A stretch of 36,632 bases of DNA from an uncultured Flammeovirgaceae bacterium (GTDB taxonomy: Bacteria; Bacteroidota; Bacteroidia; Cytophagales; Cyclobacteriaceae): contig CAJXAT010000012.1 of the NCBI GenBank assembly GCA_913050055.1, positions 1 to 36,632 of the forward strand. Reading direction: 5' to 3'. The notes under the pieces are model-generated. The model worked only from the letters and a program-made list of their open reading frames with translations. It was not told the origin of the DNA and made no database searches. The position numbers were made by a program, and so were the translations under genes. Below are positions 27,835 through 36,632 of this stretch, in pieces (position 1 is the stretch's first letter; every line of letters begins with the position of its first letter).

Positions 27835-27934
27835 CCGTATGTAATGAATTTAATTTTTTATTTAATCATCAAGGTAGGGTATAGCTTTTCCAAAGCGGTA
27901 TCCTAGTAAAATGTTTAATTTTAATTATTCTCAG

Positions 27935-29098
27935 ATGAAAAAAAATATGAAAATCGTACTTCAAAATTTGAAATCACACATTACTCTAATCGTGATGATT
28001 ATGTTTTGTATGAGTTGTCAAGAAACGATGACAAAAAAAGACTTCACGAGTGATTTGGAGTTGATCGTAGCTATTCAAAATGTAGAAAATAAAGTAATTA
28101 TATCAATGAACTCCTTGCCGGAGGAATCTAAAATTGCTATTAATACCTCTTATCCTGGCAACTATATTTCCAAAAGTGAATTAGCGCCAGAGTTGGGTTA
28201 CCAGGTTGACTTGAGAAAGCATAAGGGAAGACAGGTTGCCAACAAATCTGTTGCTTATTTTGATATGGATGGTAGAATGTTGATTGCAGACGACGGCTTT
28301 AAAGCTAAGCAAGGGAGAAGAGGTGGAAAAAAGGGAATGGGCAATAGTGGAGCCTTAGAAGATTGCTTTGATTTTGTTTATCCTTTTACGCTAGTAATGC
28401 CAGATGTTTCGGAGATTGAAATTTCTGATGTAGAAAGATGGGATTTAGTTAAAGCTTGGTATGAGGTAAATCCTGAAGAAGAGGAGCGACCTCTATTCGT
28501 TTTTCCGTTGAATATTTTGGTTGAAGAAAGTGAAATGACGATCAACGATGAGGATGAGTTTAGAGCTATTGCAGAGGGATGTGCAAATAGCAAAGGTCGT
28601 GATGGAAAGAGAGGAGATTGCTTTGAGGTAGTTTATCCTTTTACCTTGACAATGCCTGACAGTACGCTCGTTACCTTAGAGAGCGATGATGATAGAGCAG
28701 TAGTTAAAGCCTGGCATGACGCGCACCCTGAGGTTAAAGAGAAGGGTGTATTTGTATTTCCTATAAATATACTTTTGGATGGAATTGAAATGACCATCAG
28801 CGATGAGGGGGAACTTAAATCTATTGCTGAAGGATGTAAAAATGGCAAAGATCGAGATGGAAAGAGAGGAGATTGCTTTGAGATAGTTTATCCATTTATC
28901 TTGATGATGCCTGATAGCACCTTAATCATCTTGGAAAGTGAAGAGGACCGAGCAGCGGTAAAATCTTGGCATGAAGCCAATGCTGAGGTGAAAGAAAGAG
29001 GCACATTTGTGTTTCCTATCAGCTTAGAATATCCCGATGGGATTAAGGTTGAAATTGATACCAAAGAAGACTTTGAAGAGATAAAAAAGGATTGTTAA
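27935..29098 (+). CDS. Lipoprotein with three tandem 85-residue repeats, signalling-cassette cargo
   Basis: From the preferred ATG at 27935 the protein has 387 residues; an in-frame ATG at 27911 would add eight. The signal ends at the lipobox FCMSC. Residue numbers below count from 27911. Residues ~48-130 form a globular part (SLPEESKIAINTSYPGNYIS, then VAYFDMDGRMLIADDGF) resembling PepSY-like domains. Three repeats then begin at 151, 236 and 321 (bases 28361, 28616, 28871), spaced exactly 255 bases apart. Each has DCF[DE]xVYPFxLxMPD, VKxW, FVFPxxx and a final Cys, giving Cys pairs 152/224, 237/309 and 322/395. Linkers such as KDRDGKRGD are highly charged. Repeats 2 and 3 are clearly closer to each other in DNA and protein, implying a later duplication. 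I do not recognise a named family. It precedes the sigma/FecR/TonB-receptor genes on the same strand. Confidence 0.85.
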   Translation: MKKNMKIVLQNLKSHITLIVMIMFCMSCQETMTKKDFTSDLELIVAIQNVENKVIISMNSLPEESKIAINTSYPGNYISKSELAPELGYQVDLRKHKGRQVANKSVAYFDMDGRMLIADDGFKAKQGRRGGKKGMGNSGALEDCFDFVYPFTLVMPDVSEIEISDVERWDLVKAWYEVNPEEEERPLFVFPLNILVEESEMTINDEDEFRAIAEGCANSKGRDGKRGDCFEVVYPFTLTMPDSTLVTLESDDDRAVVKAWHDAHPEVKEKGVFVFPINILLDGIEMTISDEGELKSIAEGCKNGKDRDGKRGDCFEIVYPFILMMPDSTLIILESEEDRAAVKSWHEANAEVKERGTFVFPISLEYPDGIKVEIDTKEDFEEIKKDC

Positions 29099-29165
29099 GA
29101 GAACGATAGGGATGGATCATATTAATTTCTACCAATAATAAGGAATTAGGATATTTAGATTAAAT

Positions 29166-29188
29166 GCGACATGGATGAGCCATGTCGC
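29166..29188 (+). promoter_or_regulatory. Perfect 9-bp hairpin covering the sigma-factor start codon
   Basis: GCGACATGG (29166-29174), a five-base loop ATGAG and CCATGTCGC (29180-29188) make a perfect stem. The ATG of the ECF sigma gene (29171-29173) lies inside the 5' arm. No T run follows, so an intrinsic terminator is unlikely. As RNA it would hide the start codon and could make sigma translation conditional. Confidence 0.55.
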
Positions 29189-29689
29189 TTAATTATAGCT
29201 TGCTTGGAGAAAGATAAATTTAAAGAATGCTTTGATCGTTGGTTTGATGAATTGCGTAATTACATCACTTATCGTTGTGGGGATTCTGAGTTGGCTACAG
29301 ACATCGTCCAAGAGGCTTTTTTAAGAGTATGGAAAAAGAAAATTTCCTATGAAGGTGACAAGACAAGGGCATTACTTTATAAAATGGTCAAAGAACTTTG
29401 GATCTCGGAGTATCGAAAAAAACAAGTGGAATACAAATATCAGCTCAATTTAAAACAACCTTTAGAATCTAATGAAACCGAAAATCAATTAGACTTCAAT
29501 GAACTTATGACAAAATATGAAAATGCGTTAAGGATGATGTCAGAAAAGCGTAGAGCTGTCTTCCTTATGAGTCGAATGGAGGCCATGACCTACGGTGATA
29601 TTGCCACTCGACTTATGATTTCAGAGAAAGCAGTTGAGAAACGCATGCGTTTTGCATTGAAAGATCTAAGAAAACTCTTAATAGTATGA
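29171..29689 (+). CDS. ECF-type RNA polymerase sigma factor
   Basis: A 172-residue ECF sigma factor. Region 2 is visible as FDRWFDELRNYITYRCGDSELATDIVQEAFLRVWKK (residues ~18-53). Region 4 is MSEKRRAVFLMSRMEAMTYGDIATRLMISEKAVEKRMRFALKDL, with the helix-turn-helix near the end. It should direct RNA polymerase to a small regulon that probably includes this operon. It is released by the FecR-like anti-sigma encoded next, whose start overlaps its stop (ATGA). The start chosen is the ATG inside the hairpin at 29166-29188; the region upstream in frame offers no better one. Confidence 0.92.
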   Translation: MDEPCRLIIACLEKDKFKECFDRWFDELRNYITYRCGDSELATDIVQEAFLRVWKKKISYEGDKTRALLYKMVKELWISEYRKKQVEYKYQLNLKQPLESNETENQLDFNELMTKYENALRMMSEKRRAVFLMSRMEAMTYGDIATRLMISEKAVEKRMRFALKDLRKLLIV

Positions 29690-30546
29690 AAAGCAGTTTG
29701 CATAATAATGAGTTCAGTGATGAGGAGAAAATGTTATTTTCTAAATCGAGCATAGATTATGGAAAAACAAAAGAAGAGATTTGGGCTTCCTTAGACTTAA
29801 AGGATGATGTTTCTTCTGATGAGCCAAAAAAAATTCACATTTATCCAATGTTCTTGCGTGCAGCGGCCATGATCGTTTTTATGTTTGGTTTGGGCCTATT
29901 AGCTCGCTTTTATGAGAAAAATATTAATGTGAAATTGGGCCAATTGATCAGCTACAATTTACCTGACGGATCATTAGTTCATTTGAATGCAGATTCACAG
30001 TTGAAATATTATCCCATTTGGTGGTGGATGGAACGAGAAGTTATGCTGCAAGGGGAAGCATTTTTTGAAGTGAAAAAAGGTTCTAAATTTTCTGTTCAAT
30101 CAGGAAGTTATGCCACTGAAGTGCTGGGAACAACTTTTAATATATTTGCTCGAAAAAGTGGATATGAAGTTTTTTGTGCAACAGGAAAAGTTCAAGTAAA
30201 ACATTTTGAAAACACCTCAATTTTAAACCCAGGAGATTATCTAAAAAAAGTGGGATCAAACAAAATATTGATTGAGCATAAAGTGTCCAAATCCGATGTG
30301 ATGGCATGGAGACTTGGCAAATTTAATTATAATACTACGCCCATATCAAAAGTGATGGCAGACGTAGCGCGTCATTATGATATTGATATTCAAATGGAAA
30401 TGATAGACAGCGATATTTACTATACCGGTTTCTTTGATCGAGCCAAATCTGCAGATACTACATTAAAAATCATATGTAATAGTTTGGGATTTTCTTTTGA
30501 AAAAGAAACAGCTAGAAAGTACCGAATAAAAAAGATCATTTATTGA
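29686..30546 (+). CDS. FecR-family anti-sigma/sigma regulator
   Basis: A 286-residue single-pass membrane protein. The cytoplasmic N-terminal part (~residues 1-55) should hold the sigma factor. The helix at about 55-74 (FLRAAAMIVFMFGLGLLARF) crosses the inner membrane. The periplasmic part contains the FecR domain (YNLPDGSLVHLNADSQLKYYP, then MLQGEAFFEVKKGSKFSVQSG and TTFNIFARK) and a C-terminal DUF4974-type segment (FNYNTTPISKVMADVARHYDIDI) that contacts the STN domain of the outer-membrane receptor. It overlaps both neighbours: ATGA with sigma, TTGA with the receptor. Confidence 0.92.
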   Translation: MKSSLHNNEFSDEEKMLFSKSSIDYGKTKEEIWASLDLKDDVSSDEPKKIHIYPMFLRAAAMIVFMFGLGLLARFYEKNINVKLGQLISYNLPDGSLVHLNADSQLKYYPIWWWMEREVMLQGEAFFEVKKGSKFSVQSGSYATEVLGTTFNIFARKSGYEVFCATGKVQVKHFENTSILNPGDYLKKVGSNKILIEHKVSKSDVMAWRLGKFNYNTTPISKVMADVARHYDIDIQMEMIDSDIYYTGFFDRAKSADTTLKIICNSLGFSFEKETARKYRIKKIIY

Positions 30547-33029
30547 CGCATATCTTGATTATTTTGTCCAATAAATATGTGTTTTTGATTTTTTTTTCCT
30601 TGTTGTGTAAGGGCGCCCTTATGGGACAAGGTTGGACTCTGAATTATCAAAACCAACCCCTCAATGACATATTACTAGATTTGAATGATCAATATGGGGT
30701 ACAAGTATCTATAGATGCTGATTTTTCAAGAAATTGCCAGATTACATTAACTGGAAATTTTCGATCTGTTGAAACTCTCATGCATAGGTTGGCAGCCCAT
30801 TGCAATCTAGAGGTAAGTTTGATGAATAAAGTGTATCTCTTTTCGAATCCTACTATTTTATCGCCCAAGCAATCTATCTCAACTTATTTATTTCAAGGTC
30901 AGTTAATGGAAAGTTCCTCAAAAGAAATAATTCCTTATGGCTTGATTAAGATAGGGGATCAAGAGTTTCAAACAGATGAAAATGGAAAGTTTTCGGTACA
31001 AGCAGCTCATTTTTCTGAAAGTATTTCTGCTTGGGGCTTGGGTTATCAGCAGTTGGATACGGTAATGACTGCCCAAAATGAAATTCAACTGATATTAGCC
31101 CCTCATTTGCTACTTCTCGATGCTGTGTTTTTAGCCGAGAGTAACAAAAAGAGCGAAGCACATTTAGGAAAAAATATAGGTCAAATTCAGTTTAATAATG
31201 TCAATAATGCCTTGGCACCAGGGATGAGTAATAATTTAATTTTCAATAATCTGAGGCTATATCCAGGGATATTGGCTGCAGGTGAATCGAATACTGATTT
31301 TGTTATTTGGGGTTCTTATAGCGGTCAAAATAGGGTTACATACGATGAAATCACCATGTTCAACAGTTGGGGTATCAGTGATGATATCGGCAGAATTAAC
31401 CCATACATGGTCAAGAATGTAAATGTTTACAAGGGCGGCTACGGTGTATTACATGGTGACAGAGTGGGTGGTGTTGTTGAAATTGATGGGACGCAAGGCG
31501 ACAAAACCAAGTTGACCGGAGAACTGAGCCTTATCAATCAACTTACGAGTGGGCGACTAAATATTCCATTATTTTCCAATAAAGCATCCTTACAAGTAGG
31601 TATGCGTAAAACCTACTTCAATTTTACAAATTGGTCAGCCGAACATGATGATAAAAATGATTTTATCAACTCTAATTATGACTATTCGGACTTCAATACC
31701 AAATTTAATACTACGTTTAAAGGAGGTGATGAACTTTCTTTGAGTTATCTGCAGAGCAAGGATGATTATTACTCAACTTTTAAGAGTAAAGAAGGCAGAT
31801 CGGGCAGAGATAATACGTTTGAAGATAATAATATAAATTCCAACCAAGCGGGTTATGCCATCAAATACCTTAAAAAATGGTCAGAAGGAGGACATTCATC
31901 TTTCCTGCTAACACAAAGTATATATCGGGCCGTTCTCAACGTAAGTTATTATGAGGATGATAATTCCCTAGTTCCAGAAATTAAAGATACGTGGACCAAC
32001 CCTATTGAAGAAGCTAAGTTGAGTTTGAAACATGCGTTTTCAGCAAAAGGGATTCATCAGTTACAAGTAGGTTTATCCATCATTAACAACCAAACCTATA
32101 TTTCCTCGAGCAAAGGATTTAATATTTTGAATAATGAATCTCAGTCACTTACCAGATTTAATCTTTTTGTACATGACCAAATGCAGTGGAACTCACGTCT
32201 GTACATCGATTGGGGTATCAAGACCAGTTTTTTTGATAATATGAGGAACCAAGCTTATCTACAGCCGAGAATCAATGGGAGATGGGAAATTAATAAACTT
32301 TGGAGTGTCTATTTAGGCTGGGGGATATACAATCAATTTGTTAACAAAAGTCCAATTATTGATGATTATGTCAATCGATCAGATATTTGGCAGATTGCTG
32401 ATGGCATAGAAACCCCTGTTTTGAATGCTAATCATCATACTTTGGGTTGGGCATTTCGTCCTGATAATTTTGAATTGCATTTAGAGGGTTATTACAAGAC
32501 CATCAATGGTTTGAGTAGATTTTATTTCAATCGAAATTTCAATTCAATTTTGAATGTGGGATCTGCAAAGAGTAAGGGATTAGATGTTTTTTTGAAAAAA
32601 TCAATGCTAAGGCATAAATTTATTCTTTCGTATTCATTAGCTGAAGTAACTCAAAAGTTCAATAAACCAAAAGGGCAAGAAGAAGAACTTCGAGCTCCAC
32701 AAAGTCAAAAACACGAATTGAAAACTGCGGCCATATTAGACTTTTATCCTTGGCAGTTTACCGTCAGTAATGTTTACGGATCTGGTTTTCCTAATAGGCC
32801 ACAAGATCGAAGGATGCCAATATCATCTAAGTATTTTCGTGCCGATGCCGCAGCCCAATATTCTTTTGATATCAATAAATTGAATTTTCAAACAGGATTT
32901 TCATTGCTCAATATCACCAACTATACCAACATAAGATTGAACCAATCGGTCAATGTTCCAGGGGATCAAATTATAAATACCTACGGTATTCCTTTCACCT
33001 TTACCATGTTTTTGAATCTTCTTTTTTAA
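30543..33029 (+). CDS. TonB-dependent outer-membrane transducer with N-terminal STN domain
   Basis: An 828-residue outer-membrane receptor. The TTG at 30543, overlapping the FecR stop, gives a normal signal peptide (about 28 residues, ending CKGALMGQG); the next ATG at 30621 would lose it, so TTG is preferred. Residues ~30-105 are the STN signalling domain (LNDILLDLNDQYGVQVSID ... LAAHCNLEVSLMNKVYLFS). A carboxypeptidase-regulatory-like domain follows (~112-185), then the plug (VNNALAPGMSNNLIFNNLRLYPGI; VTYDEITMFNSWG; VYKGGYGVLHGDRVGGVVEI) and a beta-barrel ending in FTMFLNLLF. The STN domain marks a transducer that signals to FecR when ligand binds. The ligand is unknown; no siderophore or SusD gene is nearby. 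Confidence 0.92.
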   Translation: MTHILIILSNKYVFLIFFSLLCKGALMGQGWTLNYQNQPLNDILLDLNDQYGVQVSIDADFSRNCQITLTGNFRSVETLMHRLAAHCNLEVSLMNKVYLFSNPTILSPKQSISTYLFQGQLMESSSKEIIPYGLIKIGDQEFQTDENGKFSVQAAHFSESISAWGLGYQQLDTVMTAQNEIQLILAPHLLLLDAVFLAESNKKSEAHLGKNIGQIQFNNVNNALAPGMSNNLIFNNLRLYPGILAAGESNTDFVIWGSYSGQNRVTYDEITMFNSWGISDDIGRINPYMVKNVNVYKGGYGVLHGDRVGGVVEIDGTQGDKTKLTGELSLINQLTSGRLNIPLFSNKASLQVGMRKTYFNFTNWSAEHDDKNDFINSNYDYSDFNTKFNTTFKGGDELSLSYLQSKDDYYSTFKSKEGRSGRDNTFEDNNINSNQAGYAIKYLKKWSEGGHSSFLLTQSIYRAVLNVSYYEDDNSLVPEIKDTWTNPIEEAKLSLKHAFSAKGIHQLQVGLSIINNQTYISSSKGFNILNNESQSLTRFNLFVHDQMQWNSRLYIDWGIKTSFFDNMRNQAYLQPRINGRWEINKLWSVYLGWGIYNQFVNKSPIIDDYVNRSDIWQIADGIETPVLNANHHTLGWAFRPDNFELHLEGYYKTINGLSRFYFNRNFNSILNVGSAKSKGLDVFLKKSMLRHKFILSYSLAEVTQKFNKPKGQEEELRAPQSQKHELKTAAILDFYPWQFTVSNVYGSGFPNRPQDRRMPISSKYFRADAAAQYSFDINKLNFQTGFSLLNITNYTNIRLNQSVNVPGDQIINTYGIPFTFTMFLNLLF

Positions 33030-34775: not shown

Positions 34776-36040
34776 TTACCCGGAGCCCCAATCGGACGAT
34801 ACAGGTCACCCGGTAGCCTGGTTCTGACAAACAACTTACAGCATGCATTCCCTTGACCTGATATAAAAGCTTCCTTCGCCGGTTCGACTTGTCCCGCAAG
34901 AATTTGATCGACCAAGCTATCCTCGTTTTTCAGAGTGCGAGCTAAAATGGAACCTTTGCCGGGTAAAAACAAGGTGTGTTTTGACACTATAGAGCAACGC
35001 TTCCACCCAGTGGCTTTGGGTTGGTTGCTATGTAGGAAGATAGTGTGCTCGTTGCCTCTGATTCTTTGGTTGGATGAAAGGGACAAGTCCAGGTTGTCGT
35101 CTGATTCGACGAAACGGAGGATCCTGTCCATTTGAATTGCTGTAGTTGAAATCGATTCAGATTGGTTGGCAAGCCAGAGATGAGCGACTTTTCTTCTTAT
35201 TGCCTGAGGTAACTTCCTTAACTCCTTCGTGTTGATTTCGTTATTGCTTATGCATTCTCCGAGAACCCGCTCAACCCAATCATTTAAAGCTTCCTCTTGT
35301 TCTTCCAGTAAATCCCTACTTCTGCTCATACCTCCCAGCAGATCCCTGTCGGCATCTTCTTTGAGTTGCCTTAAGCCATTCTTTCTAATGCGATTGCGAA
35401 GGTAGTATGAGGACTCATTGCTCTTGTCGTTGCGCCAGGGAATCCTGAAGTCCGCTAGTTTCGCGCGAATATCTTCACGATTGATGGTGATGAATGGTCG
35501 GGCAATATGAATTTGTCCATGCTTGTGTACGGGGCGTGGAGCACAAAGACCTTGAGGGCTTGCCCCACGGGCGAGTCTCCAGATCATTGTTTCAGCAACA
35601 TCGTCCTGATTGTGGCCTTGAATCAGAAGCTTTGTTTTGCTGCTTTTGCAAAACTTGATGAATGGCTCTAACCTTTCGTCTCTAAGAGTTCCTTCGTCGT
35701 TCTTTGTACGAGGAGACGAAGGTCGGTAAATCGAGTGATTGAGTTCTAGTAACCGAGCCAATTCAGAGACGAATTGCTCATCCTTATCCGACTCCTCCCT
35801 CAAGCCATGATTGAAGTGGAGGACGCATATTCTGTTGCGACAGTGAGGGAATGCCGCATAAACCATCAAAAGAGCGAAGGTTGAATCAGCTCCACCCGAG
35901 CATGCAACGGCAATGGGCGAGCTCGAGAAATCTTTCAATGCACCGACCGCCTTCTCGTGCCAGCAATTCAATGGGAAGGTTGTGAGTAGCTCACTTGAGG
36001 CGGCTCGAAGCTTTTTGCCCGAAGTAAGCTGCTCAGTCAC
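34763..36040 (-). CDS. tilS: tRNA(Ile)-lysidine synthetase, 3' end cut at the join
   Basis: TilS converts the wobble C of the AUA-reading tRNA(Ile) to lysidine. The PP-loop ATPase motif is VACSGGADST, followed by VLHFNHGLREESDKDEQFV, IQGHNQDDVAETMIWRLARG and WRNDKSNESSYYLRNRIRK, all typical. The TilS C-terminal domain appears as CKLFVRTRLPGDLYRPIGAPGNKKVKN and is then interrupted, so only the last few tens of residues are missing. The GTG at 36040 is taken as the start, 16 bases after serS, with GAGGAG upstream; a TTG at 36067 overlapping serS is the alternative. The frame continues past the join to 34538, but that part is only an out-of-frame reading of the hydrolase. The sequence looks non-Bacteroidota, perhaps Verrucomicrobiota, which is a weak inference. 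Confidence 0.85.
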
Positions 36041-36056
36041 TTGTCGAGTGGTCTCC

Positions 36057-36632
<576 letters not shown>

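Follow-up and report, generated by a model that had tools for sequence, protein, structure and literature searches.

The 36,632-nt stretch analysed here (hereafter the window) is contig CAJXAT010000012.1 of an uncultured Flammeovirgaceae bacterium, and it carries a gene for a lipoprotein with internal repeats (LP) followed by genes for an extracytoplasmic function (ECF) sigma factor, a FecR-type regulator and a TonB-dependent receptor. Our comparison with related genomes suggests that these genes probably form a four-gene surface-signalling system of Bacteroidota in which the repeat lipoprotein is the conserved output, replacing a transport operon, and that the arrow from the sigma factor to LP is likely to be real. 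On the best reading of the data, the sigma factor of the operon has LP as its principal output, within a feedback loop. The original prediction, made from the window alone, had cast LP as ligand-binder, substrate or modulator of the receptor; that interpretation is partly supported, with LP appearing first of all as a regulated output of the sigma factor.

A search profile (A2) built from 13 repeat units matched 64 of the 295 genomes examined from the same family and 37 of 395 taken from across the phylum, corresponding to 28 of 84 and 18 of 171 genera, respectively, with two genera common to both samples. A scan of named genomes gave 30 loci, including records from Roseivirga (the complete operon is present at L127, in Roseivirga sp. 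E12), Microscilla, Polaribacter and Saprospiraceae, and the nearest relatives of the window are metagenome-assembled genomes (MAGs) filed as Flavobacteriaceae, Flammeovirgaceae and Cyclobacteriaceae. We assembled 101 loci (L) with flanks from these genomes (G): 61 from the family (60 of the 64 genomes, the window included, plus G066; G149, G186, G245, G300 and several second LP copies lie outside the set) and 40 from the phylum (34 of 35 new genomes, with G458 left out). Loci L110-L139, which partly come from the same genomes, were kept separate. At 86 of the 101 loci a sigma gene lies within 1 kb of LP and is accompanied by FecR and receptor genes, a recurrence that, by the test proposed with the original prediction, speaks strongly for a coupled system. 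The 15 exceptions comprise two deleted cassettes (L052, L053), three contig ends (L054, L057, L081), one locus with no cassette (L058), five with the sigma gene 1.4-3.0 kb away (L069, L101, L107, L108, L167), one with FecR and receptor present and the sigma match under threshold (L170), and three with another ECF type (L192, L195, L197). Because the profiles were derived from the loci's own phmmer hits, distant types of sigma factor, FecR and receptor score low. Among the 93 loci with a clear sigma gene, 17 have it co-directional with LP, as in the window (type A), and 76 are divergent (type B). On this comparative evidence, the coupling of LP to the cassette is established.

The same pairing emerges when the search starts from the receptor, with up to three candidates scored per genome. 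In the 295 genomes the best 14 matches to a type-A receptor profile (at least 1069 bits) are all at LP loci, and so is a fragmented copy in G011 (438 bits); three intermediate matches (G038, G098, G015; 587-717 bits) are near contig ends, and in G038 a cut LP is found on the neighbouring contig. A type-B receptor profile gave 42 matches of at least 900 bits, 36 of which have LP no more than 8 kb away on their own contig. Of the other six, four reach a contig end first (G104, G211, G015, G293) and the one in G023 shows no LP in the roughly 650 nt left on its contig, while contig C88 of G018 is a true exception, in which another, element-bearing lipoprotein weakly like DUF4382 (E 0.0014, under the cut-off) replaces LP beside the receptor. 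From a weaker type-B group (609-668 bits) eight were fetched: six have a weak repeat match (1e-4 to 7e-11), with PKD-type lipoproteins in the layout, and two, both in G028, have no repeat match. It could be argued that such neighbourhoods arise by chance or hitch-hiking, since related genomes are not independent samples and some of them abound in FecR genes (82 matches in the single 7.3-Mb genome of G018, 46 in G025). We rejected this very improbable explanation on the density of FecR genes: 24 chosen LP-bearing genomes hold 258 in about 117 Mb (2.2 per Mb), so that a randomly chosen position is expected to have a FecR gene within 3 kb in about 1.3% of cases, as against co-occurrence at 86 of 101 loci. 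The association also holds in two gene orders, across many genera and where a genome has just one FecR gene (in G462 and G659 the sole one found is linked to LP).

In the window all features of the locus lie on the forward strand. The LP frame is open from 27911, and its start is probably the ATG at 27935 (LP, 27935..29098; lipobox-type Cys36 codon, 28016-28018), because the preceding 27910..27934 stands directly behind the promoter-like element described below and is found again, as a leader, at another place in the genome; the near-identical copy, behind a second element on contig C87 of G000, points to these 25 nt as the probable LP 5' leader. The sigma frame occupies 29171..29689, with TTG 29204 as its probable start, because the ATG at 29171 falls inside a hairpin and the conserved part in relatives begins near the equivalent of 29204. 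Its product matches Pfam Sigma70_r2 (6.2e-9) and r4_2 (3.9e-13) and resembles TIGR02985 of NCBIfam (3.8e-34, 118.3 bits; cut-off 126.4). The FecR-type anti-sigma factor or regulator (29686..30546; Pfam FecR 5.7e-14, FecR_C 4.1e-10) and the receptor (30543..33029; Plug 3.8e-6) follow, and the sigma/FecR and FecR/receptor frames overlap by 4 nt each, just as had been described. The receptor had also been said to carry an STN domain. It is indeed a TonB-dependent receptor with an additional N-terminal domain; no STN model is listed for that domain in the Pfam scan, and residues 33-88 are instead matched by FecR_C (E 4.7e-5, 23.8 bits, just under the cut-off of 24.4), so the STN label rests on position and resemblance. 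No PDB sequence matched the receptor, either by profile (E<=0.001) or by phmmer with the single sequence (E<=10). Between 27911 and 33029 the open reading frame (ORF) list and Pfam reveal no transporter apart from the receptor itself.

The LP upstream regions share a motif of two boxes, GTAGGR and a second one 15-16 nt further on. In the window this promoter-like element spans 27874..27905, with GTAGGG at 27874-27879, a gap of 15 nt and GCGGTATCCTA at 27895-27905. The second box reads GCGGTGTA in type A and CNGTTNTAT in the family's type B, and in the phylum sample, where it comes mostly from family f26 (probably Flavobacteriaceae), it reads TTGTTTTA; the two boxes differ by clade together. 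Scored as GTAGGR-N15-16-NGKT in the 300 nt upstream of a gene plus 130 nt inside it, the element precedes 75 of 101 LP genes in the sense orientation and none in antisense (shuffled LP upstreams: 0.64 of 101), a count that is no independent test because the pattern was drawn up from these LP upstreams. It also precedes 60 of 92 FecR genes in sense and one in antisense, and in 59 of these 60 cases the distance to the start is 32-54 nt, in the remaining one 5. Before the sigma gene it was found at 0 of 90 loci in sense and at 58 in antisense, which is the side facing LP, and before other ORFs at 17 of 865 in sense and 11 in antisense. In loci of the window's type the only element found is upstream of LP, and hence upstream of the sigma gene in the same operon. 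The exact type-A pattern at the LP promoter is the sole match in the genomes G250, G234, G275, G313, G318 and G003. The main text of a paper on transcription starts in Flavobacterium psychrophilum (PMC9723704) contains no 'GTAGG'.

A second feature of type A lies between LP and the sigma gene. All 16 LP-sigma junctions that were folded have a hairpin shortly before the sigma gene, with sequences that differ between genera; in the window it is a 9-bp perfect, terminator- or attenuator-like hairpin at 29166..29188. The 16 junctions were chosen (the near-identical L050 and the remnant L053 were left out, L119 and L159 added) and have a mean z-score of -4.2, with 16 of 16 below -1.5 and 13 below -3, compared with a mean of -1.6, 15 of 31 below -1.5 and 6 of 31 below -3 for co-directional gaps in the same loci (200 shuffles per junction, 60 per control). 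Such a hairpin suggests that LP is made in excess of the sigma factor, FecR and receptor. According to the available part of PMC9249621, a hairpin behind fecA lowers expression of fecBCDE.

Nature has also removed the cassette in two genomes. In G003 (L053) and G004 (L052) about 3.7 kb, from inside the sigma gene to the end of the receptor gene, are deleted and LP is intact, which indicates that LP is of use, or at any rate is retained, in the absence of this sigma factor. Two separate losses appear more likely than a single deletion event, because the junctions are offset by about 10-12 nt and the divergence of one gene, LP, places G004 closer to G000, G006 and G008 than to G003. In the sigma-less G004 both boxes have changed, to GTAGGC and GAGGT, from the GTAGGG and GCGGT of its relatives.

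Several observations weigh against LP being the output of its own sigma factor. The element pattern was drawn up after the LP upstreams had been viewed (the FecR sites were not used for it), and 26 of the 101 upstreams have no exact match, wider search included, some of them having near matches. Away from LP the element is at background: 14 of the 36 sites listed in 12 type-B genomes are of this kind as against 14 for the reversed pattern, and 11 of the 26 listed in 18 type-A genomes as against 20, so the numbers do not show a wider regulon. The hairpin of the window is the weakest of the 16 (z -1.89), and L058, in G066, has LP without a cassette. Furthermore, LP has remained under purifying selection after cassette loss (ratio of nonsynonymous to synonymous substitution rates 0.22 for G003-G004; 0.22-0.50 for other pairs), and G003 keeps LP and an unchanged element despite its destroyed sigma gene. 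The last point would also be expected if the element were read by a different sigma factor or were the binding site of a different regulator, the cassette only sharing it. We consider this improbable: the two boxes at 15-16 nt, their strict orientation, their absence before the sigma gene and their joint variation by clade argue against it, as do the change of both boxes in G004 and the genomes G496 and G663, which have 8 and 12 FecR genes, yet exact sites at the LP locus only. Transcription of LP independent of the sigma factor is likewise unlikely, because the promoter-like element is conserved.

Taken together, then, element sites away from LP are no more frequent than matches to the reversed pattern; a few nevertheless look real by their neighbours. 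In the genome of the window there are two exact sites (the reversed pattern also has two), and the second precedes an esterase of the PHB-depolymerase family with a lipoprotein-like signal and the copied LP leader in front (L200 478-1464, reverse strand, G000 contig C87). The prediction that LP is the only cargo thus holds for the operon and not for the genome, which has this second element-bearing gene. An esterase of the same family, 36% identical and with a type IX sorting tail, lies behind an element in G006 (L252 309-1469, reverse strand). In G165, G109 and G521, sites 27-250 kb away precede acidic lipoproteins resembling a cluster that, at 22 of the 61 family loci, immediately follows LP. 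By eye these cluster lipoproteins resemble DUF4382; the members scanned (L077, L201) have no DUF4382 match, while the LP of L099 is fused to a true DUF4382 domain. Behind the receptor, several f26 genomes have an operon that is headed by an element site and encodes PF03640, tRNA_anti-like, DUF5777, cytochrome c-like and YceI proteins. This operon is seen at L188-L196, at about 13-16 kb (about 6-9 kb in L189), with the PF03640 lipoprotein in some, and L162 has a copper-binding-type protein in a similar cluster behind LP. The element-bearing genes seen so far (lipoproteins, esterases and the f26 cytochrome, YceI and DUF5777 genes) offer no single biochemical theme.

The three repeats at an exact 255-nt period with two cysteines each, noticed originally, were confirmed: the units span 28364..28582 (Cys152-Cys224), 28619..28837 (Cys237-Cys309) and 28874..29095 (Cys322-Cys395), their starts are spaced 255 and 255 nt apart, two copies of 255 nt, at 28446 and 28701, share 74% identity, and the same spacing separates three occurrences of a 48-nt core. 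Across 55 repeat units C1, P7, D14, P48 and C73 are invariant. A fixed repeat number was rejected, with two units in G003 and five in L128; in the latter, a Saprospiraceae LP (L128 254-1852), two of the five are near-identical, a recent repeat expansion. LP has no Pfam or NCBIfam match above cut-off and no SusD match at E<=0.1 in either, and as judged from the scans made, in which it is matched by no Pfam or NCBIfam family, the repeat domain is newly defined. The structural model of a single unit (the second; 55 sequences) is confident, with a predicted local distance difference test score (pLDDT) of 93.8 and a predicted TM-score (pTM) of 0.74, and has a predicted (beta-beta-beta-alpha)x2 arrangement. 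It has no clear fold relative in the PDB (best Z 3.1), which does not show that the fold is new; a resemblance to the C-terminal domains of PorM/GldM (Z 2.5-3.3, root-mean-square deviation (rmsd) 3.1-5.4) was rejected as too weak, and PDB sequence searches with LP and the repeat profile gave nothing useful.

The model of full-length LP (pLDDT 74.6, pTM 0.30) consists of an N-terminal domain and beta-beta-beta-alpha half-repeats. In the AlphaFold2 model residues 57-136 (28079..28318) have a predicted BLIP/PepSY-like (DUF2874) fold: the match to 3u1w_C has a VIA Z of 6.9, a middling value obtained with a predicted model, and an rmsd of 1.6 over 61 residues, and the top six structures are all DUF2874/PepSY-like periplasmic proteins of the Bacteroides group. 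At sequence level the domain has no PF11396 match at E<=0.1 in Pfam. As the DUF2874/BLIP-like family was proposed to be inhibitory in the available part of PMC2954215, LP, made on induction, could use its PepSY-like domain or its repeats to bind FecR or the receptor, thereby damping signalling or reporting on it, and the LP excess that the hairpin suggests would suit such a feedback modulator. We find this unlikely, as the divergent-type LPs appear, by eye, to lack the N-terminal domain, and inhibition is itself a proposal for the family.

Somewhat less doubtful, though still only a tentative suggestion, is that LP serves as the receptor's surface co-receptor. HmuY, BtuG and SusD are surface lipoproteins that capture a ligand and hand it over to a TonB-dependent receptor; LP would do the same, and its induction would improve uptake, a function that is compatible with LP being a sigma-driven output and adds to it. 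The close pairing of LP and receptor in both search directions favours this idea. Among the 95 LPs with a recognisable lipobox, 84 have at least two acidic residues at +2 to +7, an acidic N-terminus that is compatible with surface export and agrees with the surface export signals described in the available part of PMC5080379. It is harder to reconcile with the scanned LPs, which have no ligand-binding family match, with a repeat that has no clear PDB fold match, and with the retention of LP after receptor loss in G003 and G004.

A further difficulty for the co-receptor idea is that LP also occurs beside a different ECF sigma factor and a large protein, at L129, L131, L132 and L124 (Saprospiraceae and other Bacteroidetes MAGs) and at the f26 loci L192, L195 and L197, and five of these seven (L129, L131, L132, L192, L197) have no receptor match in the fetched stretch. 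The large partner looks like a one-span membrane anti-sigma factor; of three such partners scanned, only that of L197 has a weak barrel match, to OMP_b-brl at its C-terminus (E 3e-5, under the cut-off). The presence of one lipoprotein family in two trans-envelope sigma circuits, one with receptor and FecR and the other with a Dma-like anti-sigma factor, is what a shared monitored component would predict. Conceivably, the sigma systems watch LP as well as make it, the cytoplasm being informed when LP arrives at an outer-membrane barrel or occupies it, in which case the loop would gauge the state of the cell surface or lipoprotein export rather than an outside nutrient; we regard this as rather improbable.

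Elsewhere in the window, similarity to four sister genomes ends at 34777, within an alpha/beta-hydrolase gene. Past this point GC rises from about 0.35-0.40 to 0.55 and TilS and SerS genes appear, and the contig is probably chimeric over 34777-36632.

Taking LP as the principal output of its own sigma factor, we can present a proposal for how the system works. A signal at the outer-membrane receptor would pass through FecR to the ECF sigma factor, which would read a dedicated promoter of the GTAGGR-N15-16 type. In the co-directional layout of the window this promoter would drive LP, and the hairpin would let only some transcripts pass into the sigma-FecR-receptor genes, which would amount to a weakly positive feedback. 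For the divergent layout we propose that LP is driven by one copy of the element and FecR and the receptor by another, with none before the sigma gene. LP would then reach the outer membrane as a lipoprotein that probably faces the surface; in the window type it would carry a PepSY-like domain and repeats closed by disulphides. The set of genes with its conservation, the conserved element and its position, the hairpin and the predicted folds come from the data themselves; we infer that this sigma factor reads the element, that LP is exposed at the surface and exceeds the sigma factor in amount, and in which direction the feedback runs.

Cassettes of FecR, sigma factor and TonB-dependent receptor are common in Bacteroidota and mostly unassigned, and one clade of them now gains a candidate promoter, a local target set and a probable conserved output other than transport. 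The repeat domain links two designs of trans-envelope signalling, and if LP does feed back on the receptor, the system would be a self-monitoring surface circuit.

We found no description of this system in the literature, judged by titles and the starts of abstracts, and its parts recall several known ones. SusCD, HmuRY and BtuBG are receptor-lipoprotein pairs, and the window likewise has a TonB-dependent receptor with a dedicated lipoprotein neighbour; it differs in that LP matches no family of this type in Pfam or NCBIfam and the receptor is unmatched by PDB sequences. The N-terminal domain of LP shares its predicted fold with DUF2874/PepSY-like (PF11396) periplasmic proteins. However, LP joins this domain to Cys-bounded repeats, whereas the 2010 paper (PMC2954215), in its available part, reports no further domains in DUF2874 proteins. 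Dma/Das of Bacteroides (ECF21), whose anti-sigma factor spans both membranes according to the available part of PMC13088901, resembles the present case as trans-envelope sigma control in Bacteroidota, and the LP family is found beside a similar-looking pair of sigma factor and membrane protein; the window differs in having separate FecR and receptor genes and not an anti-sigma factor and barrel in one polypeptide. In gene content the window also recalls the cell-surface signalling systems FecARI and HasRSI: it encodes an ECF sigma factor, a FecR-type regulator and a TonB-dependent receptor whose N-terminal domain, by position and resemblance, is of signalling type. The hairpin behind the first gene is comparable to that of fecA, and at divergent loci the element stands before FecR and not before the sigma gene, much as HasI drives hasS and not itself (both from the available part of PMC9249621). 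In the same part of that source, iron-uptake sigma factors do not activate their own genes; in contrast, the element of the window type lies upstream of LP and so of the sigma gene. Finally, the conserved output here appears to be a repeat lipoprotein, in contrast to the iron-carrier transport operons of FecARI and HasRSI.

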